This document shows, piece by piece, positions 8,350 through 56,483 of a stretch of 64,000 nucleotides of DNA (within the stretch, counting starts at the first letter, position 1; each line of letters opens with the position of its first letter). The notes below the pieces were generated by a model. The model saw only the letters and a program-made list of their open reading frames with translations. It did not search any database and was not told the origin of the DNA. The translations under genes were made by a program, and so were the position numbers. The DNA comes from Sipunculus nudus. Lineage: Eukaryota; Annelida; Sipuncula; Golfingiida; Sipunculidae. The stretch lies in NCBI GenBank assembly GCA_026874595.1, contig CM049314.1, positions 54,233,812-54,297,811 on the forward strand, in the 5' to 3' direction.

Positions 8350-11300
8350 TATACACTTCTCTAGCGAGACAGTTCGGTCCGCTTTTATGTCACCCCGTAA
8401 CACACCCCCTCTTAAGAGCGTTCTGCTATCAGAACAAGACTAATTAATCCCAGGAGTCACACTTGGGTGAGCTTAATCCCTGGGCCACAAAGTATGCCGT
8501 TTAGTTTGACGAGCCCCTATTTTGTTACGAGGACAGGGGAAAATACTTGGCCGATCCGGGATTCGATCCCTTAACGGTAGCGCACAAGTCCGGCGTACCA
8601 ACCGCTTCGCTAGCAAAGCAAGCTTCTACTGAAAGCTATGTATAAATTTCTCTGGCCTTTGTAACAGCATAGTCCAATTTTCCTTAGGCCACTTTAAATG
8701 TTCAGCTACCTTCTCAAAGTGTAAGAAATATTTATCTACCTCTTTTTCTTGAAAAGGTGGGACAAGTCTTTGTTTAGTAACATCAACACTGTGAGTTGAG
8801 GCAGCACTTAGACTTTGTTCTAGTTTAAGTCTTTCTAACTCCAGTTGTTTTAACTAAACTTCCCTCTCTTCTCTCTGTTTTTCTAATTCTAACTGTTTTA
8901 ACCTTTCATGTTCTTCCTTCTCTAACTGTTTTAATGCTAGCTCGTGTTACATTTCCAACTTTTTAAATTCTAATTGCATAGCAAGGCTGTCATTTTTAGA
9001 TGTTTCATCCTCACTCTCTTCAATTAAACCTTTGCTAACTAGATCTTGCATGATTTTAGCAATGACATCAGGCTTTCTCAAAGCTTTTTTGCACACTTAG
9101 CCTCCCAAACGCAACAACTGTTCCTTTGTCAACTGTTCAAGTTTATTAGGGTCGGGATCGTCAACAAATGTCTCATGTTTGAAATCGGCCTTGTTAAGAT
9201 GTTAAAACAATAACAAAAAAACACTGAGATAAATCCTGTAAAAGATCAAGGCCTGATAAATTTTCAAAACTATTAAGCATCCCGGACGAGCCCCCATTTT
9301 GTTACGAAGACAAATTTCTAAGGGGAAAATTCAGGGCCGATCCGGGATTCGAACCCATATCGGTGCGCCAAGTCCGGGGTACCAACCGCTTCGCTAGAAA
9401 AGCAAGCTTCTCTAGCGAGACAGTTCGGTCCGCTTTTACACACAGGGTTTGAGTAATGAAAGACAGTTAATGTATATTGTTAAACTATAAAACGCAATAA
9501 TAACAGTAACTGATAAATTCTGATAAATTCTGGATCTGTTATATAACAATTGGTGTTATTTAATGCAATCAAATAAACCTATTATTATGGGAGTCCTTTT
9601 TACATTTTCTGTAACCATCTCGATGTAATACATTTTTTATGATAAAACCAGGGAAAAGAAATACAAAAAAAAAATGAATATAGATTTCGGAGTGTTCGTA
9701 TTGGAAAAGGAAGCCCAGACCGCAGTAGTATATACACAACACATATCTAATACAATAACCATGCCTTAAATTACAAGATTTTATGTAAGGGACGTGGGTC
9801 ATCTACCGGCCATACACGAGGCGACATGTCACGCGACAAGTCGCATAACACGCTTGTTCCGCGACAAGTCGCACCGTGTATGGGGGTTAGTCGCACGTTT
9901 TCATGGGTTGCGCGACATGTCGCAGAAGACGGAACTTGTCGCGCGACATCAGGCCTAGTGTCTGGGAAAAGCAAAAGAATATATAACGATTGATCATGTT
10001 GTCCTGTGATAATGTGACCGTCCATGGTTTCACCGGGTCTGATTAGGGTGCTATGTGTTTGTGCGGTCAACAGGAAACTCAGAAGAAGCTGTGTAGCTAT
10101 CCCAGAATACCTATACCTATTTTTCTTATATATCTATATTAATAAAGAGAAACAAGACGGAATATGTCCTAAGCAGAATACATATTTCATCATACGCACA
10201 TATATTGATTAATACAATGTGAACATATCAAATAATGGTTGAATCCTGGAAATTATGTTTGATAAATGTAGTTTTAATCATAGTTTTGCAGGACATGTTG
10301 CAGAACATGTCGCTGCGTGTATGGACTGTTCATGTTGAGCGACATGTCGAAGAACATTCGTGCGTTACACAATGAGTGTATTTGATTCACATCGTGTAGA
10401 CCACGTGACGGTTTTTCTTTTTTTATAGACTCCGGCACGGATGACGTCAGAGCCCTGGATGAGGCGTGTAATAACAGCTGTCCGGGGCGATGTCGGTGTG
10501 ACGTCAGCGAGCAGGAAGTAGAATGTGACGATGACGACATCACCAGAAAACCAGGTAATTATGAGCTCAACTCAGCTCAGATGAGAGAAGATAAAATACG
10601 ATATGATTTTCTTCCATTTCAAGGAATGTATGGGCGACTCGCAGTTTACATGCGATATTGCATGTGAAATGATATCATAACGGTACATTTGTTATAAAAT
10701 AAATTTGTACACAGACAAATGACATAAGTAAATAATAATTAGTAATACATAAATAGAATAAAATAAAAAAAATAGCACAGTACGCAGGCATGTATTCTCA
10801 TCTGGCATAAAACTTGCAGCTCTAAGTGTAAAGACCTGAATTCCGAACGGATAATAACTAAGGAATAAGTTCTTCTTTTTTTCGTGGGGACCTATATTCA
10901 CCAAACTATCATTTAAAAAACTGCAATGGCCAACAAAAGGAGAATTAACCATATTTATATTCTTATCTGTGATTTGCTGATTGCTGCATTTGTTGTCTAT
11001 CGTTTTAAGATTACAATTTTAACAAAATTTGGATTACATTTTAATTTTTAAAAATTGAAATGTGTAAATCAGGGTCAAAATTAACACAAAGTCAGCTGTT
11101 TCCGATTTCCGATGATTGATGATTGGTTGAACATTATGCGCAGACGTTAATTTTCTTTGTCAACAATAATTGTTACTACCAACAAAATAAAGCTTTTGGT
11201 CACATTTTATATTCAGTATTTGTGATATGTAAATTAGGGCCGCCATTGATATAAATTGTTCTTGTTGTCTCTTATCTCAAGAACTATCCATGGTTACTGG

Positions 11301-14300
11301 TCCAACATTATGACTGAGATATAGACTGAGGTTTCCATGATCAAAGATAAATATTAGATCAAATAGTCAAGGGTCTGGAGTACATTGTTATTTTTAACAT
11401 GCAAATTTGTAATGCCAAATCTTTTTTCATGGATATTGCAAGTACATTTAATTTTTTAACTAGTTCAACTGGGTGAAGCAAACATGTAAACCCGCCAATA
11501 TGTAATATTTCTCTACAAGAAAGCTGGATAAAATATATATGTGTCGACCATTTTCATATCGCATGTCAGTTTAGAATCCTTTCATGCCCAGTCTGCTCCT
11601 TATACAAGTGATGTTACCATATTCTAAGTCAACAGTCATCATCTTAAGGCTAGTAAGTGAAAATAACTTTTTATTATGTTACGGGGTGACATTAAAGCGG
11701 ACCAAACTGTCTCGTTGTGAAGCTTGCTTTTCTAAGGAAGCGGTTGGTACGCCGGACTTGTGCGCCACCGTTATGGGTTCGAATCCCGGATCGGCCCAGA
11801 TTTTTCCCCCCCAGCAATTTGTCTTCGTAACAATTGATAACCTCTTTCGCAATGGGGTCGCCATGGATGAAAAAATATTTCATAATATATCGAGTATAAA
11901 GATGATAGTTTTTTGTCAAATAGAATATCTATTCCTAAATCTTCTTGACTAAAACTTGGTGGAGGAACATGGGAGCATTTCTTTTCATTTTTTTTAATTA
12001 TATGCAAATCATGGTAAATTTGCTTATCTCTATACCCGCTGTTAAGAGAACGATGGTATTTAAACCTATAGCTTACATGATCACAGATTCGAAATATCCT
12101 AAATGGAAATTCATTCGTGAATAGTTCATCCAGATGAAAAATGTACAGGGTTTACCTCAGGTTTTACGTTTTGCAAATCAGTGATTGACATAAAAATGAA
12201 TTAGTGAAATATGAAATTATGAAGATTTCGGATACTTCCAGTTAGATTCCTAATGGAACATGAAATATTACTGTATATTACATACTACGTGTAGTTATTA
12301 CATGATGTGAAGAATAAAATAATACATGAATATGACAATATCAACATTTTTATACTTTTTACTGAATACAATATACATATATTTACAAGCACTCAGGCTT
12401 GCCTATACCATAGAAAAAATTACAATAAACTGATTAACAATTAAGGTTAAATAAACATGTTATCAATCGGCACCCAACACAGTGGTGTCAGTTTATCTTT
12501 AAGGGTGCGGGGATGACTCGATGACAAACACATACACATGTATATTATATATATATATAAATATATATACACTGTATATGACACATTTCATATTTATTAC
12601 ATTTCAGAATAAGATTAAAAAAACAAGGTATTATATATTAACAGTATAGGTTTTTACTAAACAAGGTTTAGATATATTATATTTCATCGTAAACTCTTAA
12701 TGGAACCAATATATATAATTTCTGATATTTAATATATTGTTACAGGTATCTATTTTATTGTGCACAGGAGTGTTACATGTGTCTGTTGATATTCTAATGC
12801 GTGTAGCGCAGGCATAGTTCGTTGCTATGGGAACCTCGCTTGTTCGGCGCTGGCTCGCGTGTGGGGTCTGAAGCGTAGAGACACAGCGTTCTTTTTTTTC
12901 TAGATGTTTCGGGTCTGTTCATGTGCGTGTGTATTGTTCTATGAAAAATTCCATTTCTAGAATGAGCTGGTAGAAAGTAAAATACCAGCAAGCACTAAGA
13001 GTGTTACTTTCTCGTAAGTTTTTGGGACCTTACCGATAATTGCAGTGGTGTCAGATATATAACGGATTTTATACAGATTTAATACGGACTGTCTCCAGTT
13101 CGCCTTTTTTTTAAAATAAATTTTATTGCTGAAAAATCATACAATACACGTCACACATAATTGTACAAATCACATCAAATACAATATAAACAAATGTATC
13201 CAAAGCACATTGCCTGGATATTATTCCAACTATGTTAAAAATGCTTCCTTACTTTTCCCCATTTTTCTAAATGTGCAGTAATCTTATTTTTCTGTTTTGC
13301 TATTATATATTCAATTTTCTCTATATATTTCATTCTCCTCAAAAAACCTGGCATTAAATTGCTTGTGTTTTGATTATTTTCCTTTCTACTTTGATATACA
13401 CACATTTTAAATGTAAGGATCACCTGATTTATTAGAAGGTTATTCTTAATTGGAAGCATTCCATACAATACTTTGTTCAAGGTTAATGGTGGCATTATCA
13501 CTCCAATTGATATCATCCAATCCACAATTCTAAAATATAGATTTTTTGTTACAAAACATTCATAAAAAATGTGTTCCTTGGTCTCTAATTCTATGAAGCA
13601 ATAAGAACATCGGTAACTATCAACTAACTTCCATTTGTAAAGTAAACTATTGGTTGGTAGATAGTGATGGAGTATTTTAAATAAGAATTCCCTTGAGTAC
13701 ATATCCAATGAGATTTTTTGGATGGCTCCAAAGTAACTCTCCCAGTTGATATTATCATCCTGTATTGTTTGTCTTAACTTGGCCAATGATGAGGGTGCAG
13801 TAATTTTTTTTTCCACCAACACATCATAAACATATTTAGAAGATAAAGATTGTATATTTGTAATACCCTTAGTTGTAATTATGATATGCTCCTCTGATAT
13901 ACCTTCATTAGATTTGATATCCTCGTCTTGCAATAATTTTAGCCAGTTACATGGTCCTGCAGCTAATACAGATCTCCATTTGAGATAGACTCCTGTTCTA
14001 ATGTCTGACTATTTTTTAATCAAGTCATACCATTTTAGCATTTTCCCAACATTTGAGACAAAGTCTTTTACAAACCTTATTCCACACGAGTCCAAATGTT
14101 TGCAATACACTGACTTTTCATCCACTTTAATCCACCTATTGTTCCACAGAGGTTGCAGTTTTACCTCATTTTTTATGGTTGGATCTTTTGAAACAAATTG
14201 TGACCAATCTTCCAAACATTGTTTATAAAAGCCTGGTATCTTAGATTGTGTTCTATGGAATTCAAAGTTTGAAGACACATTGGCAACTCCACCTATTTTC

Positions 14301-17300
14301 TCAAGATAAAACATTGGTACTGCTTTCCATGCATAAGCACTATTACACAGAATCAACCTTTTAATCCAAATTATTCTTTGAATTTTCAATCTGCTGTCTA
14401 AGTCTACAGAGGTTATACCTCCTTTATGGTATGGTCCTATCAGTGTACTATATCTGACCTTGGGTTTTTCTCCTCTCCATACAAAATGTTTCATCATTGA
14501 CATAGCAATATCTATGAATGACTGAGGTGGTACATGCATATTGCATACGTATATTACTTTGGATAAAGCTAATGTTCTACAAATTTCTGCCCTTCCAAAT
14601 AATGTTAAATTTCTGCTAGACCACACAGTAAAGATTTTTTTTCAATTGTTCTCTCACATTATCAAAATTAAGTTTCCTACTGATATCTTTTGCCTTTGAA
14701 TTATTACTATTTACATGCATTATTGGTGTTGAAGGACTCTTGTTAAACTATGACAGTAGTGGTATCCAGAAATCAAAGCCTAGGATCCGGACACTCTGGT
14801 ACTGCGCATTTTTATGGTTATACTGTGCAATTGTATTGATTTAGTGTATTGTAATGTAAGGATCGTTCAAGGAATAAATTATTATTATTTGTTAACAAAG
14901 AACCACGGACTTCTTTATTCGTTCCCCTAGACATTTCACGCTGCCTAGTATTACAGAATCTGATTTTTTTATCTCCGTAACATAATTTGTGCTCGTCTCG
15001 ATTACGTGATCAGCTGTTATTAGGTGCCGTAACCTAAAAATTGTGGGCTTGTCCGGGAGGCTTTATAGTTTTGAAAATTTATTAGGCCTTGACCTAGACA
15101 CATTGTTTAAAATACATTGTTTACAAGATTTATCTCAGTGTTTTTTTTGTCTTAACAACTTAACATAGCAGATTTCAAACCTGAGGCATTCGTTGAAGAT
15201 CCAGACCCTGATCAACTTGAATATATTAGAAAAAAGATCAGTTGTTGCGTTTGGGACAACCCTTTGGGCTAGGTGTGAAAAAATGCTTTGAGAAAGCCTG
15301 ATATCATTTCTAAAATCATGCAAGATCTAGTTAGCAAAGGTTTCATTGAAGAGAGTGAAGTTGAAACATACAAAAATGACAGCCTTGCTATGCAGTTAGA
15401 ATAAAAAAAGTTAGAAATGCAAAATGAGCTAGCATTAAAAGAGAAAGAAATAGAAATAGAAAGAAAAAGAAATAGAAAGAGAAAGACTAGAAAAGAAAAA
15501 AGAAATTGAGTTAAAACGACTGGCGTTAGAAAGACTTAATCTAGAACATAGTCTACATGCTGCCCCAACTCACAGTTTTGATATTACTAAACACATTAGA
15601 CCTGTCCCACCTTTTCAAGAAAAAGAGGTTGATAAATATTTCTTACACTTTGAGAAGGTCACTGAAAATTTAAAATGGCCTAAGGAAAATTGGACTATGC
15701 TATTACAAAGTGTATTGACTGTCAAGGCCAGAGAAATTTATACAGAGCTTACAGAGCCGCTGCTGACTATGACTAGGTTAAACGGTAAATCTTAAAAGTT
15801 TATGAGTTAGTTCCGGAGGCTTACCGCCAGGGACTCAGAAATTCGGAAAAGCGCAAAGACCAGACCTATGTAGAATTTTCTAGGACAAAAGAGCAGTTGT
15901 TTGATCGCTCGAGTAGTTCTTAAAATGTAATGAAAGATTATGACATTTTGCGCCAGTTGATTTTGCTTGAAGAATTTAGCTCATGAATATTTATTAACAC
16001 ATAAAATGTCCTTTACTAGAAAATCAAACCAGTCATTCACAAACAAGAATGTAAATCAGTATGGTCAAAAGAAGTTTAAGGCGCAGTCACCCAGTACAGC
16101 TAGTCCTGAGAGTCTATTGCTACATCTCAGTCCACGTCCACTGTGTCCAAGTCCAACAAAGACCAGTCATTTTCAAAGAACATCTGTAATTACTGCAAAA
16201 AGGAAGGTCAACTAATATCTAACTGTTTGAAACTTGCAAATAAACTGAAGAGCCAACCCTTTTTGTTTCAAACCCTATAAAAAGCCAAGCTCTTTCCATG
16301 TAAATAAGGGGAACAACTCCTTTACTGACTCTAAAAAAAGAGTTTGATGCTATGGAGGCCCACGTGCCGTCTGAATCCAAAGAAGAATCCATAGCTTGCG
16401 GGAAATAAACCTCATTTGATTCCTGCGAGGAATTTAATAAGGCTAGGTCCTTTATAGACTCCTGCGAGGAGTATCCTCTAAATAAGGCTAAGTCCTTTTA
16501 TGACTCTTGCGAGAGTATTTCAATTGAGGCCAGGTCCTCTTATGACAAACAGAAGTTTGTTTCTGTTGCGGAAAATTCCTCTGTTTACTCCCATTAGGAG
16601 TTTGATTGTATTAAGGATGTAGATTCCTTTTGTGAAACCGAAAGTGTTTATGACTGACAGTCAGTTCTTCGTTTGATGAAATTGAGGTAGTAGATTCCTC
16701 TCCTGACTCTGAAATAGAGTTATTTGAGCCATTCATACATGATGGTTTTGTATCACTTTCAAGTGATTTTTCAGATTCTACCCCTATTAGAATTTTGAGG
16801 GACACTGGTTCAGGCCAGACTCTCATGTTAGCAAACACTTTCAAATTTTCTACTAGGTCTTTTACTGCTGTACATGCACCAGTTAATGGTGTATTTTCAG
16901 ACAAGCACACTTCAGTTCAACTTCACAGTGTACATTTAAAATCTATGAATATTACTTTGGGCATAAGATCTACTTTACCCTTTAAGAGAATTCAGTTGCT
17001 ACTAGGCAATGATGTTTCAGGTATTAAAGTACAGCCTGTACCAATAGGAACAGAAAAGCCGTCACTTGATCAGGACACTTATCCTGAACATCTGAAAATT
17101 CCTGGTTTGTATCCTTTGTGTGCTGTAACTAGATCTATGGCCAAGAAAAACACACATGAGGATAATGGTCCAGATAATAACACTCTGAGAGTCACTAGTG
17201 ACTCGTCCAACGACTCGCCCGTACAGGATGCAGCATATCAAGGTCAAACCTTATCGCAGAACAGCATAAGGACCCTGATATTTCATTTTTGCTTCCAAGG

Positions 17301-20300
17301 GGAGTTTCTAAAGATGGACTGTCACCGAACCCAGTTGATGTCTATATTAAAAATGGAGTACTAATGCGTAAATGGCGACCACCTGATGTATGCGCTGATG
17401 ATGGGTGGGACATCAAATATCAAATAGTAGTGCCCAAAAGCAATCGCAATGAAATTCAAGCATGGCACATGAGGCTCCTTTGTCTGGCCATTTAGGTATA
17501 AATAAAACGTATTAGAAAATTAGTACACACTTCTATTGGCCTAGTCTCAGAACAGATGTTTTACAATACTGTAAATCATGCCACACATGCCAGATGGTAG
17601 GCAAGCCTAATCAGAATTCTCTAGCCTATTCTAGGCCTAGAATTAAGGCCTATTCCTGCCTTCGAGGAACCATTTAGTAGGATTATTGTTGATTGTGTTT
17701 GACCACTGCCCAAAACAAAGTCTGGACATGAATACTTGCTGACAATAATGTGCGCAACTGCCAGGTTCACTTAGGCAGTACCATTGCGCAAAATTAATGT
17801 CAAAAGTATTGTCAAGGCTCTGGCCAAGTTTTCCTTAAAATGTTTGGATAATGAAATTCCGTCTAGTCTGATCAAGGGTCTAATTTTATGTCTGTCTTAT
17901 TCCAGCAAGTTTTGCTTGAACTAGGTATAGAACAGTACAGCTCTTCGCAATACCATTCTGAAAGTCAGGACGCCATCGAGCGTTTTCACCGGACATTAAA
18001 AAGCACGATTAGTACCTATTGTTACGACACACAGAAAGACTGGGATGAAGAAATTCACCTATTGCTGTTTGCTGTCAGAGAATCATTTCAAGAGTCCTTG
18101 GGTTACAGTCCCTTTGACACTCAGTTCGAGGTTCATCAAATGAGACATCGACGAGATGTGAATTGAGAATAGTGATTATACCTTACTATAAATCAGAAGA
18201 TTTATATCATATTAAACAATAAATTAACTTCAGTTAATTACATGTCGTTGAATGGCAAATAGTCATCTTTTAATTACAAATATTTACATTCATGAGATCA
18301 CAAAGGTTATTTTACATTTCTCATGATGATGTTAATTAAATAGAACCAAATATTGCAAAATCTTACCCTAACTTTAAAGAATGTATAAGATGTAATGTAA
18401 CTATGATGATCTTCAGTGTATTTTTCATATAAATTTGAGTACCCCAAATTTAACACAGGATCCGCCCCCGTTACACTGAGAAGACTTGGTGGAACTAATA
18501 AAAAAGTGAAAATGTAGCATCCAAACTTCATCTCCACCAAATTTGGTACTTTCATCACAATCTGAACAATTCTTCTGTATTTTGCCGTTAACCGCTGCAC
18601 TATTCAGGGCTGCGACGCATATATTGATGACCTCGTCGTGTACAGCGAAACCTAGGAGAAACATCTGCAAATTCTTCGCGATCTCTCCGAAAGAATCAGC
18701 GAAGCACGTCTGAACATCAACTCAGGAAAATCTGAGTTTTGTCATGCACAAGTAACACTTTTTTGGTCATATTGTCATATTGTAGGGCAGGGTCAAGTAA
18801 ACCTATTGGTGCTAAAAAAAGTGCTATTTCTGCATTTCCTAGACCAGAAAACAAAAAGCAAAGAATCCGTTTTTTTGGTATGGTTGGATACTACAGGAAG
18901 TTTTGTTCAAATGTTTCTGCTGAAGCTGAACCTTTGACCTCTTTGCTAAAGAAGAAACAAAGTTTGTATGGAATGTTCAGTGTGAAAATGCATTTCAGAA
19001 TTTGAAAGCAATTATGCAAAGTTCACCAGTTTCAGCAGCTCCCGACTTTTCTGTACCCTTTAAGTTAGCTGTAGATGCTAGTGATACTGATGCTGGTGCT
19101 GTGTTGTAACAAGAAGGCAGCGATGGCATAGGTCATCCAATTTGTTATTTTTCAAAAAAGTTAAATGCAAACCAGACAAACTACTTCATTATTGAAAAAG
19201 AATGTTTGGCTTTGATATTGGCATTGCAACATTTTGAAGTTTATGTGACTTCATCAGTCAAGCCTTTCATTGTCTTTTCAGTGATCACAATCCTCTTACG
19301 TTCATGAACACGTTAAAGTGTAATAATCAAATATTGCTTGCTATGGAGTTCGTTTTTACAGGATTATATTCTTGAAATCGGACATATTTAAAGGGAAAGA
19401 CAATGTACTTGTTGATTGCTTATCGAGATGTTTATGAAATGTTGTAAACGCAAAATGATCTTGATCGCAAAAAGAAAGTTTTTAGAGAAAACTTTCTTTC
19501 TTCTAACAGGAGGGGGGGTGTTACATGTTGATATTCTGATACATGTAGCGCAGGCATAGTTCGTTGCTATGGGAACCTCGCTTGTTGGGCGCTTGGTCGC
19601 GTTTGGGGTCTGAAGCGTAGAGACACAGCGTTCTTTTTTTGTTCTAGATGTTTCGGGTCTGTTCATGTGCGTGTGTAATGTTTTTTGAAATTTTCCATTT
19701 CTAGAGTTTTCGGGTTAGAAGCTTTTAATTAGGGGCTGTGTTTAGAGCCGACAGAAAGAAAAATACTAGTCAGCACATAGACCGTAACTTTCTCGTCAGT
19801 TCTGAAACCTTACCGATAATTGCAGTGGTGTCAGATATTTAGCGAATTTTATACAGATTTAATACGGACTGTCTCCAATTTGCCTTTGCATTATTACTGT
19901 TTACATGGATTAATGGTGTTGAAGGACTCTTGTTGAGCTATATCCAGAAATCAAAGTTTTGGATCCGGACACTCTGGTACTGTACATTTTTATGGTTATA
20001 CTGTGTAATTGTATTGATTTAGTGTATTGTAATGTTAGGATTGTTCTAAGAATAAATTAAAATTATTTTTTAACAAAAAATCACTGACATCTTTATTCAT
20101 TCCCCCAGACATTTCACGCTGCCTGGTGTTACAGAATCTGATTTTTTTTCTTCAGTAACAAAATTTGTGCTCGTCAAGAAAATGTGATCTGTTGTTATTA
20201 GGTTCCGTAACAATATTTCATTTTCAATATATGAATATTATTTTCTGAATAGCAAAGGGTAGGATTACATTGACCGTCCCACCTTACTATAAGGTGGGTG

Positions 20301-23300
20301 GACATGTGCACCCATCCCCCCCCCCCCCCTTATATAAACGCCCCTGAACCAAGAGGGTCATTTCAAGTTTGAATAAAAGCAATGTTACACCCTCCTGTTC
20401 CGCTTTTTCTGTGTTTGATCATGCCCTTGCCTACCCACACATATTTACAGAAGTGACGTTTCTTATCTTGCTCTTATTAATTCAGGCGTAGAAATAATTT
20501 CATTTATTTCTGATCATCTTCACATCTTTCAGAAGATCCTGACTCTCCTTCACAAGGGGGCGTCACCGTCTGGATGATAGTCACTTTCGTTCTTGCCGGT
20601 GTGGTTGTCTTGGCAACAGGAATCCTGTGTGGCTGTCTGGCCTGCTACTGCGGTAATAAGAGAAACAGGTACAAATAAATGTTATATTTATTAACTATTG
20701 ACCAAAATATTTTTTTTATAAATTACACTATTTGATTTATTTTCAAACCTATCATTTAATGGGTAATTAGTTTCATTGTTTATGTTCAGTCAGACCGGTA
20801 TAGGTATATAACAAATACCCCTTTCACCCGGCAAATAATGAACGGTTTCAAACTCACAAAATTTCACAGTTTACAGTGCTGAAACGATACATTGTGCGTG
20901 ATATGATGCATGTCGCGATACCACATTAAAGATTAGATACATTGTGTCAAGATATGATACATGTTGCTGTACCACACTAAGGATACGATACATTGTGTCA
21001 AGATATGATACATATCCTGATACCTTACTAAAGATATGATACATTCTGTCACGATATGAAACATGTCGCGATACCTCACTAAAGATACAATACATAGTTT
21101 CATGATATAGTACATATCGCGATACCAAACTAAAGATACGATTTATTGTTTCATGATATGATACATATCGCAATACCTTACTAAAACACGATAAATGGTC
21201 GATATATTGTGTCATGGTATGATGCATGTCGCGATACCTCACTAAAAATACGATATGTTGTTTCATGATATGAAACATGTCATGACACCTCACTTAAGAT
21301 ACGAAAAATGTTGCAATTAAGTCGATTGCATTTTCGATTGACATATATCGTCAATGAATCGATTGTTTAGCGGGACCTCTGATGATACCAACACGCTATA
21401 TGACCCTGTATCCCAAGCCATCTGAGAATACAACATGATATTTAATTTTGTATCTTGATTCATCTGACGATACCATCACAATATTTTACTTTGAATCGCG
21501 GGGTATCTGACGATACGTCAGATGTTTGACTTTGTTACAGCCCTAGGTATTTTAAAACCAAAGATCGGTACACCAAAAGGACAAAATACAGAAGATTAAA
21601 CATTAAGTTTATTCACCCCCTGAGGTTAAATACCGAAGATTAAACATTAAGTTTATTCACACCCTGAGATAAAATACCGAATATTAAACATTAAGTTTAT
21701 TCACACCCTGAAATAAAATACCGTAGATTAAACATTAAGTTTATTCACATCCTGAGATAAAATACCGAAAATTAAACATTAAGTTTATTCACACCCTGAG
21801 ATAAAATACCGAAGATTAAACATTAAGTTTATTCACACCCTGAGGTAAAATACCGAAGATTGAACATTAAGTTTATTCACACCCTGAGGTAAAATACCGA
21901 AGATTAAACATTAAGTTTATTCACCCCCTGAGGTAAAATACCGAAGATTAAACATTAAGTTTATTCACACCGTGAGATAAAATACCGAAGATTAAACATT
22001 AAGTTTATTCACACCCTGAGATAAAATACCGAAGATTAAACATTAAGTTTATTCACACCCTGAAATAAAATACCGAAGATTAAACATTAAGTTTATTCAC
22101 ACCCTGAGATAAAATACCGAAGATTAAACATTAAGATTATTCACACCCTGAGGTACAATACCGAAGATTAAACATTAAGTTTATTCACATCCTGAGATAA
22201 AATACCGAAAATTAAACATTAAGTTTATTCACACCCTGAGATAAAATACCGAAGAATAAACATTAAGTTTATTCACAACCTGAGGTAAAATACCGAAGAT
22301 TGAACATTAAGTTTATTCACACCCTGATGTAAAATACCGAAGATTAAACATTAAGTTTATTCACACCCTGAGGTAAAATACCGAAGATTAAACATTAAGT
22401 TTATTCACCCCCTGAGGTAAAATACCGAAGATTAAACATTAAGTTTATTCACACCCTGAGATAAAAAACCGAAGATTAAACATTAAGTTTATTCACACCC
22501 TGAGATAAAATACCGAAGATTAAACATTAAGTTTATTCACACCCTGAGATAAAATACCGAAGATTAAACATTAAGTTTATTCACACCGTGAGATAAAATA
22601 CCGAAGATTAAACATTAAGTTTATTCACACCCTGAGATAAAATACCGAAGATTAAACATTAAGGTTATTCACACCCTGAGGTAAAATACCGAAGATTAAA
22701 CATCAAGTAATTTCACTCCTCGATCATGTTACAGGTGTCTCTTTTTTGTGCACTGTTGACATTCTGTTTCGAGTTAGGCTCAAGCCCTGGGCGTCAATCG
22801 CTATGGCGCGTAGAGACACAGCGCTCGGTATAATCTGTACTGGGTGAACCCTGGCGTATAAAGACACAGCGCTCATGTTAATTTGGAATTTTCTGGGCTG
22901 ATCACCCTCTATGAGCGCGTGTTTTGTATTGTTCTTTGGGCGCGTGTGTATTATGTATTGTCGTGTTTTTTGGATTGTTCGTTAAATGAAGTTTCTAGTC
23001 TTTGATGCGAGAAGCTATAAATTAGGGGCTGTGTTTACAGCCGAAAGAGAAAGGGAGAAATATTCCAGCGGACACAGAAGAGTGTGAGTCAGTTTGTGGA
23101 CCTTTCCGATAATTACAGCAGTTATATAGATCTTCTTCGAAATTTTTAACGGACTTTATATAGTCTTCAGTTTGCCTTTGGGATCACTACCTGAACTTCA
23201 TTTTTGGATTACAACAGATTGATTTTGTGATTGAATTGGACTGTTATTCTCTGAGAAGATTTATGTGAACTGTTTATCTGGATTATACGCTTTAAAAGAC

Positions 23301-46945: not shown

Positions 46946-47594
46946 ATGGCGTCCCCGGGGCTACAGTTGTCCTTAGCTACAATATTATTCTTCACGTGCA
47001 ACCAGGTTCGTGGTCAGGGACTTCTGTATGACTTCACTCGGTGGACGTACAACAAAAGCGTCGATGTAGGCTACCTCGTTCTGAGGTCGGATCAAAGTAA
47101 AGCTAGTCAGTTCTACCTGGAAACTAAAAAGATCGTTTATTGGCTGACTAAAGTTCATATGAATATTCATCCAGAGTTCGCACGAGTTTCCATAGTAACG
47201 TTTGCAAAGTCTTCCGAGATTTTAATAGATTCGTCTTCCCGGGCTCTTTCCAAATGTCAGTTACTTGATATTATAGAAAATGATCTAGTGTTCAACAGGG
47301 ATGCTAGCGATGGACACGATCTCACAGGAGGATTAGAAAAAATCCAAGGTATATTTAACAAAGGAGTAGCAGCTAAGAAAATATTATTTATATTCACAAA
47401 TGGGTATCACAATGACTCTCACCACGTCGTGCTGAGAGAAATACATCAGATTGCCGATGTGTATGTGGTCAGACTGAAACCGGAGTATCAGCAGGAGAAG
47501 GCGAAAGCTCTGGCGACTCATCCAAATTACTATGCTACAGCTGAAGAGTGGAGGAACTACATATATATCACATCACAGCGTGGCTTGTACAAAG
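46946..47594 (+). CDS. Gene B coding exon 1: signal peptide and vWA-like domain
   Basis: Acceptor CATATTCCAG (to 46934) lies 11 nt before the ATG, so a 5' non-coding exon exists upstream, as for gene A. The signal peptide is LQLSLATILFFTC followed by RGQG. The vWA fold is recognisable from ARVSIVTFAKSS, SKCQLLDII, GHDLTGGLEKIQGIF and KKILFIFTNG, but the DxSxS site reads LVLRSDQS and the later Asp is Asn152, so metal binding by the normal MIDAS is unlikely. Donor AAAG|GTAAGC, phase 1. Confidence 0.88.
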
Positions 47595-49158
47595 GTAAGC
47601 TATATAAACTAAACTAGCTCTCGTGAAGATTCATATTTTTCAAGATATTGTTAACTCCTCATAGAATATTGCCAGATTATCTTAACAAAGTATATATTTA
47701 GCGTGGTCTTCAAAACAACATTTTAATGGCAAACAAAGTTTAAAATTGTTGATGTACTGAGAATTCTGGACATCCATCAGATGAGTTTCTGATATCAAGA
47801 GGGGATATATACATATACATTAAATTTAAAATATGTACATGATTTGTGGTAATGGTATGTTTCATGGTTGTCAACTGTTGTTGCCATGTTATGAATTGGC
47901 AAAAGTTGACACTCATTCAAACAAGAAACATACTAAAGTTATCCTAAGAATAAATGATACATTATTCAAAAGCCCGTCCCAAATTAAAAATGTGGTCATT
48001 CTTTCAAGACGTACTAAATTAGTTTACTTCACTCAGTGACATATATGCAGTAAGACAAACGTCCGCATCGACATCCGCGATTTTCTTTTGTTAAACTCTT
48101 TCTTGATTCTAGGTGCTCAGCTAATACATATATTGGAATCCATGAAATATTGGTAGGGAATGGTTACTTAATCATATTCGATGATTGAAAGACAAAAACG
48201 ACCGTTGATTAATCAATAATTGATTGTGTACCTTATTTAATGCCAAAGTGTATGCCATGTAGAATTTTACTTGAAATATTGACCTAGTTAATTAAGGTAA
48301 TTACCGGGTTGTTGATACTCATTCGTCGCACACTGTTCAGCTTTAATGTTTTCGCTATTTTGTGCCCGGCTCTCACATATCTCTGACATAATTAGAATTT
48401 TTTTATCTGTATTATATGGCTTATTTATATGTGCATACATAGTCGGTTTATAAAGGATTAGGCAAAAATGCAAATGATTAAATCGATTATGAAAAAGCGA
48501 CCAATCATTGATATAATCGTCCAATTGGTAAACCACAAGTGATTATACTCCTGGTACTCGGACAAAGACCGGCATGCAAGGAGGACAACACAACCTCCGA
48601 CCGACCTTACCTACTGCGGTGATATTTTCCAGAGGACCCGAGCTGGTTCCCGGAGACCACGTGTCCAGCATCATGTGTCAGTAACGCCGGCTGTTTCTGT
48701 GACGGAGTGACGGGCGCCAAGTCGTGTCTGTGTCTTCCTGGATTTACAGACGTCAACGGGCAATGTACAGGTAAATATATAATATCATATACCGTGTGGC
48801 CCCCCCAAAAAACGCACCGAATTTCATATCTTTATAACTTTACAACCATTGAATGTAATTTCATAAAATTCTATCTGCAACAGAGCATGTTTTTTTATTA
48901 GAGATGAGGGAATTTCAGATTCAAGACTCAGGAAAGAAACGTTGAAAATAGTCTGATGAAAAGATGAATACCAAATTCCGAAATTGCGAATTTTGATGTA
49001 AGATTTCTAATTGGTCTGATGCACTAACCCTTTAAATCAGGGTTATAAAATTTGCAGCATTTAAGCATAACATCATGTTCTATATGCAGATAAAGTTTTA
49101 TGAAAAGAGTTGTTGTGATTCAAGGTCTAAAGATGACTGCGACATGTTTGGTCACGAG

Positions 49159-49207
<49 letters not shown>

Positions 49208-49601
49208 AATATATTTATGTGTGTGTGTGTTTCACTCTGTATAGACAAATATTAAAAATTGTTATCCTTAAAGCAAACTGCAAATTCCTGTGTTGTTAAA
49301 TAAATAGAAGTCATGACATGTAAATAATTAAATATAATTTATTATATCACTGATCCTGGGGTATAAAATTCAAAAGATTGCAGCAACCAGTGCAATCATA
49401 TTCACATCTGATGTTGTATTACTCATTGCAAATGGGGATATGGTCAGAATTTCTAATTGGTCTGATGCACTAACCCTTTAAATCAGGGTTATAAAATTTG
49501 CAGCATTTAAGCATAACATCATGTTCTATATGCAGATAAAGTTTTATGAAAAGAGTTGTTGTGATTCAAGGTCTAAAGATGACTGCGACATGTTTGGTCA
49601 C

Positions 49602-49651
<50 letters not shown>

Positions 49652-51049
49652 AATATATTTATGTGTGTGTGTGTGTTTCACTCTGTATAGACAAATATTA
49701 AAAATTGTTATCCTTAAAGCAAACTGCAAATTCCTGTGTTGTTAAATAAATAGAAGTCATGACATGTAAATAATTAAATATAATTTATTATATCACTGAT
49801 CCTGAGGTATAAAATTCAAAAGATTGCAGCAACCAGTGCAATCATATTCACATCTGATGTTGTATTACTCATTGCAAATGGGGATATGGTCAGAAGGGTG
49901 TCACAGGAGAGGGCGAAACCAGAATTTGTTGAAACATTAAGCAGATATAAAGTTTATTTACCCAAATACTCTGGTCAGTGAGAGCACGGTGTCCTGTACA
50001 ATTACGTGTCAGCATTTTCTGTTATGTCTCATAATGAAAAATCTTATGGTACCAATAATTTATGTTATATCTTAACATGAAATGTCTTTTCATACAATTA
50101 TTTTCTGTTAAACATCTGGTAGTGTTCAAAAAGTCTTTTAATACCATTATTTTCTTTTATATATCTTGTAATGAGAAGTCTTATAATAACATTAATTTCT
50201 GTTATATCATATGATGATTAATCTTATAATTTCATTTATTTTTCATTACATATATCTTGCAATGAAAGTCTCATAATACCATTATTTTGTCATATCTTGT
50301 CATGAGAAGCCTTATAATTCCATTATTTTCTGTTCTATCTGGTAATGAAAAGTCCAGTGACAACATTATTTTTTGTTATATCTTTTAAATGAATAGTCGT
50401 CTAAAACTGTTATTTTCTATTGAGAATGTGACAGTCTTTTCAGTATTAGTCTGTTGTGTCAGTTTTTTTTAGTATTAGTCTGTTGCGTCAATATTTTCAG
50501 TATTTTTCTTTTGTGTTCGTATTTTCAGTATTAGTCTGTTGTGACAGCATTTTCAAGGTTAGTCTGTTGTGTCAGTATTTTCAGTATTAGTCTGTTGTGA
50601 CAGCATTTTCAGTATTAGTCGGTTATGTCGATATTTTCGGTATGTCTCACATACCAAGATCTGTTTTTAAATCACAAGAGTGTGACAATATATTGTGTTA
50701 CAGCTTGTCCCGATAAGACTTACAAGAGCCAGCCTGGGGAGTTTTCCTGTGCACGCTGCCCGTACACCAGCTGGTCATTACCTAACCGCACGAAATGTGA
50801 ATGTCCCAAGATCGACCCACTAAGGATGGCAGAGCTCTGCCAGGGTAAAAATTATTTATACATTTTACGTCATTTTAAATAAAATAAGATTCTAAATTGT
50901 TTGAAGAGCGTCATCTCAGAAAGTGAAGTTTAGCTATGCTAAGTATGCCATAAAAATAAAAGTTCGTGTACGTGAGATAAAAATATAATATATATGTACA
51001 TACTTTAAATTCCTTGGGTTGGCCCTCCACATCCCTATGCCCTATAATG

Positions 51050-51092
<43 letters not shown>

Positions 51093-54000
51093 CATGGTAA
51101 TCTTTCAATCAATTATGGGACCATCTAATAATTAGCAATTAAATAATTAATATACAATTATAAACAGTGCATTGTTGAGGCTTCTCTCTGCAGAAAGTAT
51201 AAATAATTGTAACTTTAAAATAAAAGAATATATTAATTCCGCTTTATGAAAATGAGATTACGATAGTATACGTTCTTTTGACAACAACGAAAGGCTTACA
51301 CAGTAGAAATTACACACCGCATGACTAATAAAATCCGATTCACGATAAAATAATAACAGTCATACGATTACTGAGTGGATGTAAATAAAGGACTTTTTAC
51401 CTGCCAGGTCAATGCGACAGTCGAGATTGTCCAAGGAACAAAACGTGTACATACAGTGAAAACAACAACCCTGAATGCGTGTGTAAGCCAGGACGTATCG
51501 GAAGCGACTGTGACCGTGTGGCCAACCACTGTCATACAAACATATGTCGAAACTCCAGCCCATGTGGGAACACCCCGGGCGGGTACTACTGTTGGTGCGC
51601 GTGGAGTCACGTGGGCGCTTACTGTGAACGACAGTCGGACGATTGTGGCCCTGACGCATGCGCACCCGATGAGGCGTGCAGCATTGTGAATGAAAGCCTG
51701 AAGTGCGTCCTCAAACCGATCGGTAAAGGCCAAGTTGTGCTTTCTTTTTATATACATTATGTCCTAGCTACATCTATAATTATCAGCAACCATAGATTAC
51801 TCTGTGGACAAATTATTTGTTTTGATATTTTCGTTCTACTGTTGCAATCATTACATATTCTAAATTTAAAGTAAACCTTCAATACATTTTATACCAAATG
51901 AGACATTTGTCTGCATTTTCTAATAGTTTTTACGGGTCTATATATCAATCATCAATCACCATCCGAAATCACCTATGGCCAAAACGTTCGATCTTGTTCG
52001 CTCCTGGGTGATCCCTGGTGACATCATACATAATAATTAACCGTATTGCGTCTATTCATTTCCTTGATAAAGCTGTGACCACGTAGGAGTGATCGCTTTT
52101 GATGCCAGAAACATATAAGCAAGACCTCTATTCTAACCCTTTATGTAAGACATGTGGCTGGATCACATAACCGTCTGTGGCTTCAGACAATACCTTTACT
52201 TATTAATATTTTAAGTCTATGTTTAAACCCCTGTGTGGTGGTGATCGATGAACGTGACCTGTAGTGACGTCACACATTACCATAACCAATACTCCATGTA
52301 TTTAGTAGTTGGTGTTGGGGTGATCGTTGGAGCAGTGATCGGCGGCGTGGTCTTAGTTTGTCTTATCATCGTCATCATCATCCTCCTGGTCCGGAGGAAA
52401 AGAAGAAGAAGAACAACCCAAGGACAACAGCAGTTTTCATCTGTCAACGGAATCTCTGGCCTGCCACGGCAGACCCCGGACCCCGCGTTCATGAACGACA
52501 TGCGTGAGCATTCAGTGTGTACCGGAAGCTCGTTCATAGCCAAGTCGGACGTCACACAGCCACCCAAGTACCCATATTTCATTAGATTAGAAACATATAT
52601 TTTGTCTGTTTAAAGTACTAGTTTCTAAATGACACTATTTTGTAGCCGTCTCCCTTTTTGGCAATTCTTCCTACCTTCTATCTACCTACAAGACCTTAAA
52701 GTCACATTCTGACTTTTTTCTAAGATCGCTCATTCTAAACAATTATTTGTCAAAATGGAAGAAACAGTTGGCTAAGCTGAAGCTGTCTTCCATGGACGCA
52801 CCCCGATCGGGAACCATGCAACCGCTATAGTACCATTTACCGAACTATTATCTATCTCCTATTCTTAGTGTTTTGATAAAAGACACTAGTCGTTTACAAC
52901 TTGCTAGAAAATGTTTTCACAGGTGAAAGAGCGGCTAGAATTTAAAACATTTTTGGATCAAGTGGGCGACACGAACCCCATTATAACTTCTTAAAGGTGA
53001 TGGTATCATAGGGTAACCTACTTGGCGTATTCGACTGGTTCTGTTTCGTGAAGTAAATTTAAGCTCTACTATACTTTGAAGTGACCAGTAAAGTGCTTCG
53101 CGGATAAGTACAATTCAACAGATCTTGCAATCTCACAGCGTTACAGGAACTTCTTAAAAGAAAGAGTATTACAAAAGCATAAAGGTTCTATTAAGCCGTC
53201 AAAATATACACTATGTGTAATAACAAGATGTCATGTTTGAACAAGATATCATTTAATATAGCATACCTCAAACATATAAGTGGTAAATTCTCATGTTTGT
53301 GCCATTCTGAATTCCCAAGAAGTAAATAATTGTAACGATTAATTATAAATGGCCGGAAAATGTGTTGAGGTTTGCAAATACCGTGTTGTATGCTTAAGGT
53401 TATTACGCAAACTCAAATTGTTTCGATTTATGTAAGATTCACATGATAAAATAATATAGGATTTGGAATGAAAAAAAGCCGCTGGAACGCAGAAGTCATC
53501 TATGGCTTTATGTAGCAGTGGCTTTATAAGCGGCCCGGCAAAGTACAGACAAAAAGCGGCCGTACACTGTGCAAAAGGAAGAAGCATTTGCACACCAATG
53601 TTAATTTGATTCATTATTGCCTCTCCAAGGGGGTGTGTTTGTGTGTGTGTGTGTGTGTTCGTTCACAACATCCCTCACGCAATCATGAACGGAATCTCAT
53701 GAATTTTTCAGGGCATTTAGGGAATGGGCCAATGAAGAATCGATTAGATTGATTATGATGTGGATCCAGCACATGATCCGATTTCAGGAACGTCATTACA
53801 AATATTCACAAAATTTCAATATGCGGTCAATTATACACGTATGAACATTGGAATATGGACCGAAAGAATGAATGCAACCACGGTTTTGGGAGCTTCCCAC
53901 AATAAGAACTTCCAACAAGACGAAAGCTTGTGTTTCTTAGAATGCACATTTCCAGTTTTATTAATCTAAATATATAATACATATTTCAGAGTTCCGATGA

Positions 54001-56483
54001 AACCACCTCGAGCATATCCCGCGGCACCACCGTCACTGACACCTACACGGCCGGCGCCGCCGCCTCCGACACCACCTAAACCAGCGAAACCAACTCCCCC
54101 GAAGAAACCCCAAAAGCCACCGAGACACCGGCCGTTAGTGAATGGAGCCGCCGTACAGAGAATGGCGTCCCGTATCATCAGACCCGTGTCATCATACAAG
54201 TAAACAACATAATACAACTCTAAAAATTCCTGACACACTCTGCCCGTAAAGGCCAAAAAAATCACGTTACAGCCGTGTTTCGTTAATTTTATTCTCTCAC
54301 AACTTAGTCACTTTCTTCATTGAAAGTTATTTACTACCTCCACAAAGGAAGTTATGTTTAACCCGCTCCTATGTGTTGTTTATTTGTTGTTTTAGAGTTG
54401 GCACGATTACGTAAAATGTATGGGATCGCTTTATTAAAAATTGTGTTATTTGACCATGTGCCTACTAAGACAAGGTAAAGGGGTCGGGTCCAACTCGTTT
54501 TTTTTTTGTATTTACGGAGGGGTGTCAGTTTATTTTATTCTGAGTATTACTTACAAGTACTCTACCTGTTTTTTCTAAACTTCCTCTTACTTATGTGAGC
54601 CCTATGATTTTCACCTGACAAACACACATGCACGGGGATGATCTAATACCCTCCGCAAAAATATTGTGCAGAATTCGTTGACAATCCTCTGTTTTCACAG
54701 GTCTGTGTCGGCTCCACAAGGTTTTGCTGAGCTTCGGAGGCCCATCAATGAGGAACGAGAGCGAATATACGAAAACTTGGCAAGTACAGTTAATTTCACT
54801 GGTTCATTTTCTCTCACCTCAGCCGATTTGCCAGAGTTTATTGCTGTCACCTCGCCCTATCCGACATTTTCTTTCCTATTTTGTGAAAAGATTCAAAGAA
54901 TTTCTTAAGTTAATGAACATCAGATATCGGGATTTCGGAATAGGCTCATTTATTATGCTTTATAAATCTCAAGGGCATTTGATCATATAACTACCTACGT
55001 TTCCTTTACATATATATACTTATGCTCTACATGCCAGTCAACATATCCACTTCAAGCATCAAACTAGTTCAGGATCATGTATAATGTATGTTTTGATTAG
55101 AAAATATAATAAAACTATACATCAACACTCCTAAAGGTACTTTTACGTGTCGCGAGGAATTGTGATAAAAAATATGCTCCAGTTATTTGATAAAAAACCG
55201 TTCACTTGGCCCGTGGAATGTGGTATGAGACGCGCAGTAAAATAAAATTCTCAGTGGAGAACTGGATCCGTATACCGCGTGCGGTCTGACGACAACGGGA
55301 TCTGGGTAGTCTGTGATTTACAGTACAGGTGAAGTAAATCGCGCGGGTTCTGCGTCCGCAATCCACTACCGCATATCGCGCACCAAGTACACGTAAGTTT
55401 ATACTTACTAAAGCATGAGTTGCATAACTCATGCACCCCACCTATAGAGCGATAAAATACAGTACGTGCAGGCTTTATAGTGTCAGGTTTAGTGTCACAG
55501 CTCAAACGATGTGCTCACTGAATTGTTACTGCAAAGTTCATCACGTGATCTTACACCAGGCGAGAGACATGAGACGGTTGAGTTGTTTTATATGTACACA
55601 TGTATGTCCGTATTAATTTCCCGCAGACTGCAGGAAACGCATGCATCTTTAAGATGGATTCTTATAGGTTTACTCATTAGGAACAGAACAAGTTGGTTTC
55701 TCAGGTACTTGCTGTCATAAATCGGTGCGTGCAGTTTTTTTTTTTTTTTTACATTTTAGGTATACAATAAAATATCTATATGATCAGGAGACACCATGAT
55801 AATAACAGAATGTTTTGCTAAAAAAAGTAAAAGTAAAACATAACGTAAGGAAATTGTAGCGACAAATTTATTTTTTTCATTTTCTTGAAAGAAAGCGGCT
55901 TTAGTTTATATCGGTAAATTTTTACTGAACTTTAAAATAAAATTCTTTGAGGTGGGGTAGGGGGGCGGTACAAAATTGATAATCGCGGAGCCTGAGAAAG
56001 CAACATTTTTTTTCCGGCTGGATATAAATATTTAGAGTGTCACATGTTGGCTTATGTTTTTAGATACATCAACGAGGGATGAAGAGATGGAAGGAGTACG
56101 TGGAAGCACTTGTTGATCAGGGTCGGGTAGGGGACATTTACGTCTGTAAGCGCGATAACAGCAAGTACATCGCGTCAAGCAGCGACTTCAGGCTCGAGCC
56201 CGCCGCCGTCACCGATGTCTACAACGTCATCATGTCACGTGCTCGGGGCGTTACAGTTTACGTTACGCCACGTCATAAATACAACGTTCAAACCAATAAC
56301 GGCACGGTCATTACCGGGCGAGGGACTTACAACAGCCCTACAGGTCCTCAACAACAAGTGATGGTGTCCCAGATAACGAAGGATTACATCATACTAGCGA
56401 CAGCAGATGACGCCACGGACTCTGGTCAGTGTGAGGCGGAAGTGACGTTCCTGGGGGAGCACTTTGCTGCCATCGACATGTAG
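46946..56483 (+). CDS. Gene B: vWA/EGF single-pass receptor with C-terminal profilin-like domain
   Basis: Coding exons: 46946-47594, 48633-48770, 50704-50844, 51408-51722, 52306-52567, 53990-54199, 54701-54779 and 56064-56483, giving 737 aa. Phases agree at every junction (1,1,1,1,2,2,0). Domain order: signal peptide (1-23), vWA-like (about 38-205), Cys-rich/EGF-like (217-262), GCC2/GCC3 ephrin-receptor-like (263-309), EGF-like (310-414), transmembrane (415-443), basic stop-transfer, proline-rich tail (503-560), IYENL motif, then a profilin-like domain (604-737). The extracellular order recalls the N-terminus of SVEP1-like proteins. The vWA metal site is lost. Seven introns are GT-AG except the last, which must be GC-AG to keep the frame. 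Likely role (inference): a surface receptor coupled to actin assembly. Confidence 0.85.
47595..48632. other. Gene B intron 1
   Basis: No repeat or hidden exon recognised. The 68-codon frame at 47833 has no support. Confidence 0.5.
48633..48770 (+). CDS. Gene B coding exon 2: Cys-rich EGF-like
   Basis: 46 codons, phase 1-1, with acceptor TATTTTCCAG and donor ACAG|GTAAAT. Eight cysteines are arranged as TTCPASCVSNAGCFCDG and KSCLCLPGFTDVNGQC. The final CLPGFxxxNGQC is the tail of an EGF-like module. Confidence 0.88.
49004..49896. repeat. 446-bp direct tandem duplication
   Basis: TTTCTAATTGGTCTGATGCA begins at 49004 and again at 49450. The two units are nearly identical up to GGGGATATGGTCAGAA, differing mainly in (TA)n and (GT)n length. 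This is a recent duplication inside gene B intron 2. The AT-rich sequence around it holds no exon. Confidence 0.92.
50030..50640. repeat. Two degenerate short tandem repeats
   Basis: From 50030 to about 50390, a roughly 55-60 bp unit built on CTTATAAT.CCATTATTTTCTG and TATCTTGTAATGA repeats with drift. From about 50430 to 50640, a roughly 30-bp unit TTTTCAGTATTAGTCTGTTG + TGTCAG repeats about seven times. Both are immediately upstream of exon 3. Confidence 0.75.
50704..50844 (+). CDS. Gene B coding exon 3: GCC2/GCC3-type module
   Basis: 47 codons, phase 1-1, acceptor TGTTACAG, donor CAGG|GTAAAA. It reads ACPDKTYKSQPGEFSC, ARCPYTS and RTKCECPK. This is the CPxxTYxxxPGxxSCxxCP pattern of ephrin-receptor-like modules, which in SVEP1-type proteins also follow a vWA domain. 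Confidence 0.88.
50845..51407. other. Gene B intron 3
   Basis: Contains a (TA)n run at about 51054-51086. No hidden exon seen. Confidence 0.6.
51408..51722 (+). CDS. Gene B coding exon 4: EGF-like repeats
   Basis: 105 codons, phase 1-1, acceptor CTGCCAG, donor ATCG|GTAAAG. It holds CVCKPGRIGSDC, then CRNSSPCGNTPGGYYCWC with AYCE, two EGF-like modules. A third begins CGPDACAPDEAC and stops after KCVLKP with only four cysteines. The incomplete module lies directly against the membrane. Minus-strand frames here are shadows. Confidence 0.88.
51723..52305. other. Gene B intron 4
   Basis: No extra exon is needed. The downstream acceptor TGTATTTAG|TA at 52304-52305 restores phase 1 exactly. Confidence 0.6.
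52306..52567 (+). CDS. Gene B coding exon 5: transmembrane segment and juxtamembrane tail
   Basis: The only in-phase acceptor before the helix is at 52305, giving KPI|VVGVGVIVGAVIGG. The helix is about 29 residues, followed by RRKRRRR as stop-transfer. The cytoplasmic part ends before the donor CCAA|GTACCC (phase 2). An ATG at 52248 opens the same frame but follows an in-frame stop and is not the exon start. Confidence 0.82.
52568..53989. other. Gene B intron 5
   Basis: Contains one copy of a dispersed repeat (53635-53925, described separately) with a (GT)n run at 53638-53660. No hidden exon recognised. Confidence 0.55.
53628..53925 (+). repeat. Dispersed repeat family, copy 1
   Basis: It reads GTTCGTTCACAACATCCCTC, AATCATGAACG.AATCTCATGAAT.TTTCAG.GCATTT, TGAAGAATCGAT and GAACATTGGAATATGGACCG. 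The same series occurs inverted at 58160-58450. No coding capacity. Confidence 0.75.
53990..54199 (+). CDS. Gene B coding exon 6: proline-rich cytoplasmic segment
   Basis: Acceptor ATATTTCAG, donor ACAA|GTAAAC, phase 2-2. The segment has APPSLTPTRPAPPPPTPPKP and then KKPQKPPRHRP. APPPPTPP is a polyproline ligand type bound by profilin or EVH1/SH3-class domains. PQKPPR fits the class II SH3 pattern PxxPxR. The segment lies between the membrane and the profilin-like domain. Confidence 0.88.
54200..54700. other. Gene B intron 6
   Basis: No repeat or exon recognised. Confidence 0.5.
54701..54779 (+). CDS. Gene B coding exon 7: linker with IYENL motif
   Basis: Acceptor GTTTTCACAG, 79 bp, ending AACTTG|GCAAGT. 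It encodes SVSAPQGFAELRRPINEERE and RIYENL. The GC donor leaves phase 0, which is exactly what exon 8 needs. The nearest GT (54783) would break the frame. YEN echoes the four motifs of gene A's tail. Confidence 0.82.
54780..56063 (+). other. Gene B intron 7, GC-AG type
   Basis: It begins GCAAGT and ends GTTTTTAG. The rest of the donor matches the strong consensus usually seen in GC-AG introns. It contains the third Harbinger-like MITE near its end. It also contains a GC-richer stretch at 55195-55400 with CGCG-rich text that could not be assigned. Confidence 0.75.
55681..56020. mobile_element. Harbinger-like MITE, copy 3 (decayed)
   Basis: TTGGTTTCTCAGGTAC on the left and GAGCCTGAGAAAGCAAC on the right are inverted, as in copies 1 and 2. 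Internal CATGATAATAACA, TTTGCTAAA..AAGTAAAA and CTTGAAAGAAA match copy 1. Flank duplication is no longer visible. Confidence 0.65.
56064..56483 (+). CDS. Gene B coding exon 8: profilin-like domain
   Basis: Acceptor TGTTTTTAG, phase 0, 139 codons to TAG. From RGMKRWKEYVEALVDQG to the end the length (about 134 residues) and layout fit a whole profilin. It has an N-terminal helix with W607 and Y610 (WxxYV, where profilins hold polyproline aromatics), KYIASSSDFRLEPAAV (compare the profilin WA-x-S-x-F-x-x-x-P block) and a central KYNVQTNN strand. VITGRG, VMVSQITKDYIILAT and the GQC....V..LGEH terminal helix follow. This assignment rests on reading the pattern by eye. The protein ends IDM, without the C-terminal aromatic of vertebrate profilins. 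Confidence 0.75.
   Translation: MHQRGMKRWKEYVEALVDQGRVGDIYVCKRDNSKYIASSSDFRLEPAAVTDVYNVIMSRARGVTVYVTPRHKYNVQTNNGTVITGRGTYNSPTGPQQQVMVSQITKDYIILATADDATDSGQCEAEVTFLGEHFAAIDM

Follow-up and report, generated by a model that had tools for sequence, protein, structure and literature searches.

The locus described here raises the question of whether a profilin can serve as the cytoplasmic end of a membrane receptor. To our knowledge, the known members of the profilin family (PFN1 to PFN4 and the profilins of yeast and Acanthamoeba) are free single-domain proteins. Gene B of Sipunculus nudus, located in a window of 64,000 nucleotides (the whole stretch of DNA that was analyzed), does not present its profilin in that free state: in our gene models, the profilin exon (exon 8) is joined to exons encoding a vWA domain and a membrane helix. 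The eight exons of gene B together encode one predicted 737-residue membrane protein, in a frame that stays open with a GC donor at exon 7, and the predicted layout (vWA domain, cysteine-rich and EGF-like modules, membrane helix, tail, and profilin) is almost certainly correct. The original prediction of a receptor that ends in a profilin concerned gene B; the layout proved to be repeated as a multigene family in the same genome, where nine profilin exons sit in receptor-like genes (B, C9c, C7a, C7b, P1, P2, P3, P4, and P5).

The modules of gene B, all encoded on the forward strand, are supported to different degrees. Exon 1 (46946..47594; donor ACAAAG|gtaagc, phase 1) carries the start codon, an N terminus that by eye resembles a signal peptide, and a vWA domain, which had been predicted and which exceeded the Pfam cut-off (PF00092; E=4e-8). 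The metal-site motif of metal-dependent ligand binding by vWA domains, as in integrins, is DxSxS. In gene B this motif is degenerate (LRSDQS); at least one relative, P2, retains it (DRSKS). Exon 2 (48633..48770) is an open frame bounded by splice sites and encodes a cysteine-rich, EGF-like module whose best Pfam match, EGF_MSP1_1, lies below the cut-off (20.9 versus 27 bits), exon 3 (50704..50844) encodes a cysteine-rich module resembling Ephrin_rec_like (PF07699, presumably the family earlier named GCC2/GCC3), and exon 4 (51408..51722) encodes EGF-like repeats, with EGF-family matches that all fall below the Pfam cut-off. The GCC2/GCC3 module of the original prediction thus corresponds to a weak resemblance (15.3 bits, under the cut-off of 23.1), and its EGF modules, below the cut-offs in gene B, do pass in a paralog on contig C1; exons homologous to exons 2 and 4 are present in C7a, C7b, C9c, and P1. 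Exon 5 (52306..52567) encodes the predicted membrane helix (positions ~52308-52391, residues ~416-443), for which the top 19-residue hydropathy window reached 3.64, and directly after it the basic juxtamembrane stretch RRKRRRR. The exon 5 donor (CAA|gtaccc) is weak and in phase 2, a phase after the helix exon that is common to gene B, P1, P2, P3, P4, and C7a. In translation, exon 6 (53990..54199) is a proline-rich cytoplasmic stretch (PAPPPPTPPKPAKPTPPKKPQKPP). Exon 7 (54701..54779) ends in the tyrosine motif IYENL (YENL at 54768-54779) at a phase-0 GC donor, TTG|gcaagt, and exon 8 (56064..56483; acceptor tttttag, phase 0) encodes a whole profilin domain and the stop codon, with an in-frame Met at 56079, the usual profilin start. 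Intron 2 contains a direct duplication of 300 bases (window positions 49003-49302 and 49449-49748; 97% identical).

The last exon had been read as a whole profilin, with a profilin HMM search proposed as the check. In that search, exon 8 (139 amino acids) matched PF00235 at E=9.6e-8 and 32.6 bits (cut-off, 25) over profile positions 2-123 of 127, and in the joined 737-residue protein the match, at residues 606-733, was still above the cut-off (28.0 bits). Alignment of seven receptor profilins with four known profilins by hhalign gave 98.5% over 121 columns. A profile of the seven receptor profilins had 19 PDB matches at E up to 0.001 (best, 1.9e-8), of which 18 are named profilin and the other is the pollen allergen Art v 4.01, which we take to be a profilin as well. 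Human PFN1 was not reached by this receptor-only profile in PDB at E up to 0.001; a profile that also contained two free profilins matched 40 PDB sequences at E up to 0.01, one of them being human PFN1. Exon 8 as a single sequence had no match in PDB. We infer from the profile matches that the C-terminal domain of gene B would adopt the profilin fold. Full-length and domain searches of a large protein set found no relatives (in one of these searches, scoring was limited to the 8000 candidates with the most words in common); this set is taken to hold few animal proteins, so the result is uninformative on how widely receptor-profilin proteins are spread.

Whether this profilin belongs to the receptor depends on the junction between exons 7 and 8. 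The original prediction held that splice phases support the continuity of the final exon with the rest, which was right in its outcome but silently required a GC donor. Pairing the GT donor at 54783 with the first acceptor, at 56064, puts the profilin out of frame; a GC donor located four bases upstream, at 54779, restores the frame. The GC donor and the acceptor at 56064 score only 2.3 and 4.1. In an unguided ranking of the splice pairs of gene B by a crude matrix, the pair that we chose took first place at junctions 2, 3, and 6 and second place at junction 1; at junctions 4, 5, and 7, of which junction 7 leads into the profilin, it was not among the top four. Gene B alone is thus no proof of this junction, and the GC donor was adopted on the strength of the homologous phase-0 donor in the paralogs. 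At that position C9c reads TACGAAAACGTG|gtcagt, with a GT donor, and gene B reads GAAAACTTG|gcaagt, both in phase 0; the residues that follow are |VNQKGMSEW in C9c and |IHQRGMKRW in gene B. In P1, on contig C1, the junction is IMYDNT|gtaagt followed by |EIHIGGLGGW. Of the six paralogs ranked, five had the receptor-to-profilin splice pair in first place, and P5 had it in second. All nine profilin exons of receptor-like genes have a phase-0 acceptor at the same position, and eight of these genes (all but C7b, with the GC donor of gene B counted) yielded a matching phase-0 donor. We also considered the GT donor at 54783 with a second acceptor at 56077; this pair leaves the frame open, but the acceptor scores -4.9 and the paralogs use the position of the first acceptor, and the pair was rejected.

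These observations bear on the possibility that exon 8 forms a free profilin gene of its own, located downstream of the receptor, or additionally gives rise to a free isoform that begins with the Met at 56079. Such a start would be available in most of the family, since eight of the nine profilin exons have a Met at the normal profilin start; two profilins on contig C4, near 12.47 Mb, are likewise each whole within one open frame; and in gene B the strict GT donor breaks the frame and the junction that we chose is absent from the unguided top four. The P1 exon, in contrast, has no Met at the profilin start, and the arrangement as a whole is repeated in nine receptor-like genes. We reject a separate profilin gene because of these nine parallel genes, the conserved phase-0 junctions, and the co-divergence of the two modules described below, and we consider this reading very improbable; a free isoform may nevertheless be made in addition to the receptor.

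The nine genes were found by searching the genome itself (1.43 Gb, 153 contigs), with match counts that are lower bounds: at least 12 matches for the Pfam profilin model, at least 4 for the profilin domain of P1, at least 27 for P2, and at least 66 at E up to 1 for gene B, many of the last being EGF-like exons only. A membrane-helix exon lies upstream of the profilin exon in all nine receptor-like genes and a vWA exon in eight; for P5, no vWA exon was found within C9:13.91-14.01 Mb. C9c is the receptor gene that follows gene B on the contig, with its profilin exon near C9:54324387-54324800. Five genes (B, P1, P2, P4, and C7a) were assembled into end-to-end models, each of which is one open protein with a vWA domain and one membrane helix; VWA passes the Pfam cut-off in all five and Profilin in four, the exception being C7a (19.1 versus 25). 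The models were built manually, crude splice matrices being used for the sites, several paralog junctions besides the profilin one were picked by eye, and everything is known from genome sequence alone, and so one might suspect that the exons of unrelated genes have been brought together by the assembly or by our modeling. Against such an artefact, which we regard as extremely improbable, the order of the layout recurs on three contigs (C1, C7, and C9) and in the compact genes P2, P4, and C7a, of ~5 kb each, and the phases at the profilin junction are consistent.

Members of the family differ in condition. P3 (C9:13979112-13991857) is closely similar to P4 (identity of 89% in the vWA domain and 97% in the profilin) and its profilin exon is interrupted close to the end by an in-frame TGA; P3 is perhaps a decaying copy or an assembly error. 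The genome also holds profilins besides these and the two on C4: an interrupted gene at C2:81.94 Mb whose product begins MSWDSYIDNL, a diverged profilin at C4:76.82 Mb, and a profilin fragment with a stop on C6. On the reverse strand, C7:45861572-45862470 contains a vWA exon and an EGF-like exon that match gene B, and no profilin match was found near the vWA gene at C7:45862048.

If receptor and profilin have been inherited as one unit, their sequences should have diverged together. Across eight genes, profilin identities and vWA identities are correlated (r=0.88, a value reached by 8 of 40320 permutations); the correlation persists without P3 (r=0.76; 8 of 5040 permutations) and without both P3 and P4 (r=0.88; 9 of 720). 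The trees of both modules contain the group {B, C9c, C7a, C7b}, and in both P2 clusters with P3 and P4. In the profilin tree, which has few outgroups and one very long-branched row (L008), the nine receptor profilins group together in a single clade (support, 97/98) separate from six free profilins. The co-divergence of the two modules makes the fusion appear old, and the sequences fit a single fusion followed by duplication. The modules have changed to different extents: P2 and P4 are 32% identical in the vWA domain and 62% in the profilin, and dN/dS between P3 and P4, a single pair that includes the P3 copy with its in-frame stop near the profilin end, is 0.13 for the profilin and 0.16 for the tail versus 0.47 for the vWA domain, 0.41 for the EGF-like part, and 0.62 for the helix exon.

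To consider what this domain might bind, eight receptor profilins (all but that of P3) were compared with human PFN1 at the poly-proline residues (W3, Y6, Asn9, W31, H133, and Y139 in PFN1) and the actin residues (Phe59, Arg74, Arg88, Lys90, His119, Lys125, and Tyr128) named in PMC2694148; the human PFN1 sequence used has Tyr at position 59. In the groove, Trp3, an aromatic residue at position 6, and His133 are present in all eight, an aromatic residue is found at position 31 in four and at position 139 in two, and Asn9 is kept in none, which points to a poly-proline groove that is partly to largely conserved. On the actin face, Arg74, His119, and Tyr128 are kept in none of the eight, Lys90 and Lys125 in one each, and Arg88 in five; position 59 is Tyr in one. 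The position of His119 is occupied by Asp in seven and by Gly in one.

The original prediction went beyond the layout, which has stood, and placed actin-monomer delivery behind the receptor; the residues do not establish this part, with Arg74 and His119 each kept in none of the eight. In such a mechanism, the profilin would bind ATP-actin and hand monomers to filament ends under a clustered receptor, with the proline-rich stretch as an FH1-like track. A domain that is a whole profilin by profile, a proline-rich stretch that adjoins it in seven of nine genes, and the retention of Arg88 in five of eight would suit this role; the uniform loss of Arg74, a position with Arg in the yeast and Acanthamoeba profilins and Lys in the freeC4a profilin of the same genome, the replacement of His119, and the near absence of Lys125 argue against it. 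The actin-binding profilins of yeast and Acanthamoeba likewise lack several of the human actin-contact residues, and this variation makes the residue test a weak one. We consider direct actin delivery unlikely. Since the groove is partly to largely kept and the actin contacts are mostly changed, an adaptor for proline-rich ligands is favored over plain actin delivery; poly-proline binding would be the better supported role of the two, though unproved.

The changed actin face, together with the low profilin identity between receptor subfamilies (17-26%), would also be compatible with a domain that has abandoned both classical roles and persists as a lipid-binding or purely structural tail module. 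The precedent is vertebrate PFN4, which, according to PMC2694148, binds phosphoinositides and not actin or poly-L-proline. PMC2694148 also describes PFN4 as keeping just one groove aromatic, whereas the receptor profilins keep three groove positions throughout, and the P3/P4 pair, one pair only, indicates constraint on the profilin exon; a PFN4-like fate is therefore quite improbable in our judgment.

The tails offer a candidate ligand for the groove. Between the helix and the profilin, seven of the nine genes have a proline-rich stretch: it is long in gene B and reads TPPVP in C9c, SPPVPP in C7a, PPPPPP in P2, and IPPPP in P3 and P4; in P5, PPPPPP was seen in an open frame that has no assigned acceptor of its own. 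The stretch in P1 is thin only. A tyrosine motif precedes the profilin junction as YENL in gene B, YENV in C9c, YDNT in P1, and YGNP in P5, and as YGTV in P2, P3, and P4. YxN is the Grb2-type SH2 motif. In C7a, no YxN was seen before the profilin junction and YENE occurs after the profilin, within a repetitive, NQNEA-type tail that makes up the C-terminal ~120 residues.

Our best explanation, which we hold to be somewhat better than an even bet, is that the gene B family consists of single-pass type I receptors with a profilin as a fixed, proline-reading effector. Outside the cell, these receptors would present a vWA domain (found in all copies but one) and cysteine-rich and EGF-like modules; inside, they would have a tail, mostly with a proline-rich stretch and in several cases with a YxN-kind tyrosine motif, and the profilin at or near the end. 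The profilin would read proline-rich sequences, and the chances that acting as an adaptor for such ligands is its main role appear about balanced. At rest, the groove may be occupied by the proline-rich tail of the receptor itself, a clamp in cis that we propose with some hesitation. Clustering of the ectodomain by a ligand, or tyrosine phosphorylation, would then free the groove, which could gather proline-rich actin regulators of the formin, Ena/VASP, or WASP type, and actin would grow beneath the ligand, as engulfment or adhesion requires. Direct carriage of actin monomers by the profilin would be possible and is not required. Phagocytosis or adhesion would be a natural setting.

Several known systems share parts of this design. 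Integrin beta and Dictyostelium SibA are vWA-bearing adhesion receptors; gene B has in common with them an extracellular vWA domain, a membrane helix, and a likely link to actin, and differs by its profilin as the cytoplasmic effector and by its degenerate metal-site motif. The engulfment receptors CED-1, Draper, and MEGF10 resemble the gene B family in having an EGF-like ectodomain and one membrane helix, and their tails bear tyrosines, as in gene B. According to PMC2651865, in a passage that lists no profilin for them, these receptors have an EMI domain. The Pfam scan (E up to 0.01) of the five models of the gene B family reported no EMI domain. In formins and Ena/VASP proteins, a proline-rich stretch works with a separate, soluble profilin at membranes; the gene B family has the same pairing but carries the profilin in the same chain, and the Pfam scan of the five models reported neither FH2 nor EVH1. 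Compared with the profilin family itself, the receptor domain is alike in its full length, its profile match, and part of its poly-proline groove, and differs in being the C-terminal part of a predicted membrane receptor and in its changed actin face. Among the matches listed for our search of the open-licence literature, which covered titles and the beginnings of abstracts with terms that also match "profiling," no description of a receptor with a profilin domain was found; other animal genomes probably contain examples that lack annotation.

The known routes from receptors to actin run through a chain of adaptors and nucleators. If our reading is true, a profilin-carrying receptor would shorten this chain to one molecule, recognition outside the cell could connect directly to the cytoskeleton, and the family would illustrate how exon capture can equip receptors with a cytoskeletal effector. 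Such a receptor would also open two testable questions: whether a tethered profilin can feed or organize actin at the membrane and whether mutual regulation occurs when a profilin and a proline-rich stretch share one chain. We speculate, with reservations, that these proteins may be a new class of receptors with a built-in profilin and its own proline-rich ligand, in which clustering would open the clamp and start actin assembly without a soluble adaptor and which would have arisen by one fusion and spread to a family with ectodomains that change faster in at least one group.

The window contains a second receptor-like locus, gene A (4532-24537, forward strand), with a vWA domain (PF00092; 7.1e-16), a cysteine-rich open frame near 10386, an open frame near 20514 that encodes a membrane helix, and a tail frame in which PPPP and four YEN motifs occur. 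No profilin was seen in gene A at 4532-24537, and it is perhaps a cousin receptor that lacks the profilin fusion. Open frames at 13235-14641 (reverse strand) and 15460-17364 (forward strand) resemble, by eye, pieces of retroelements.
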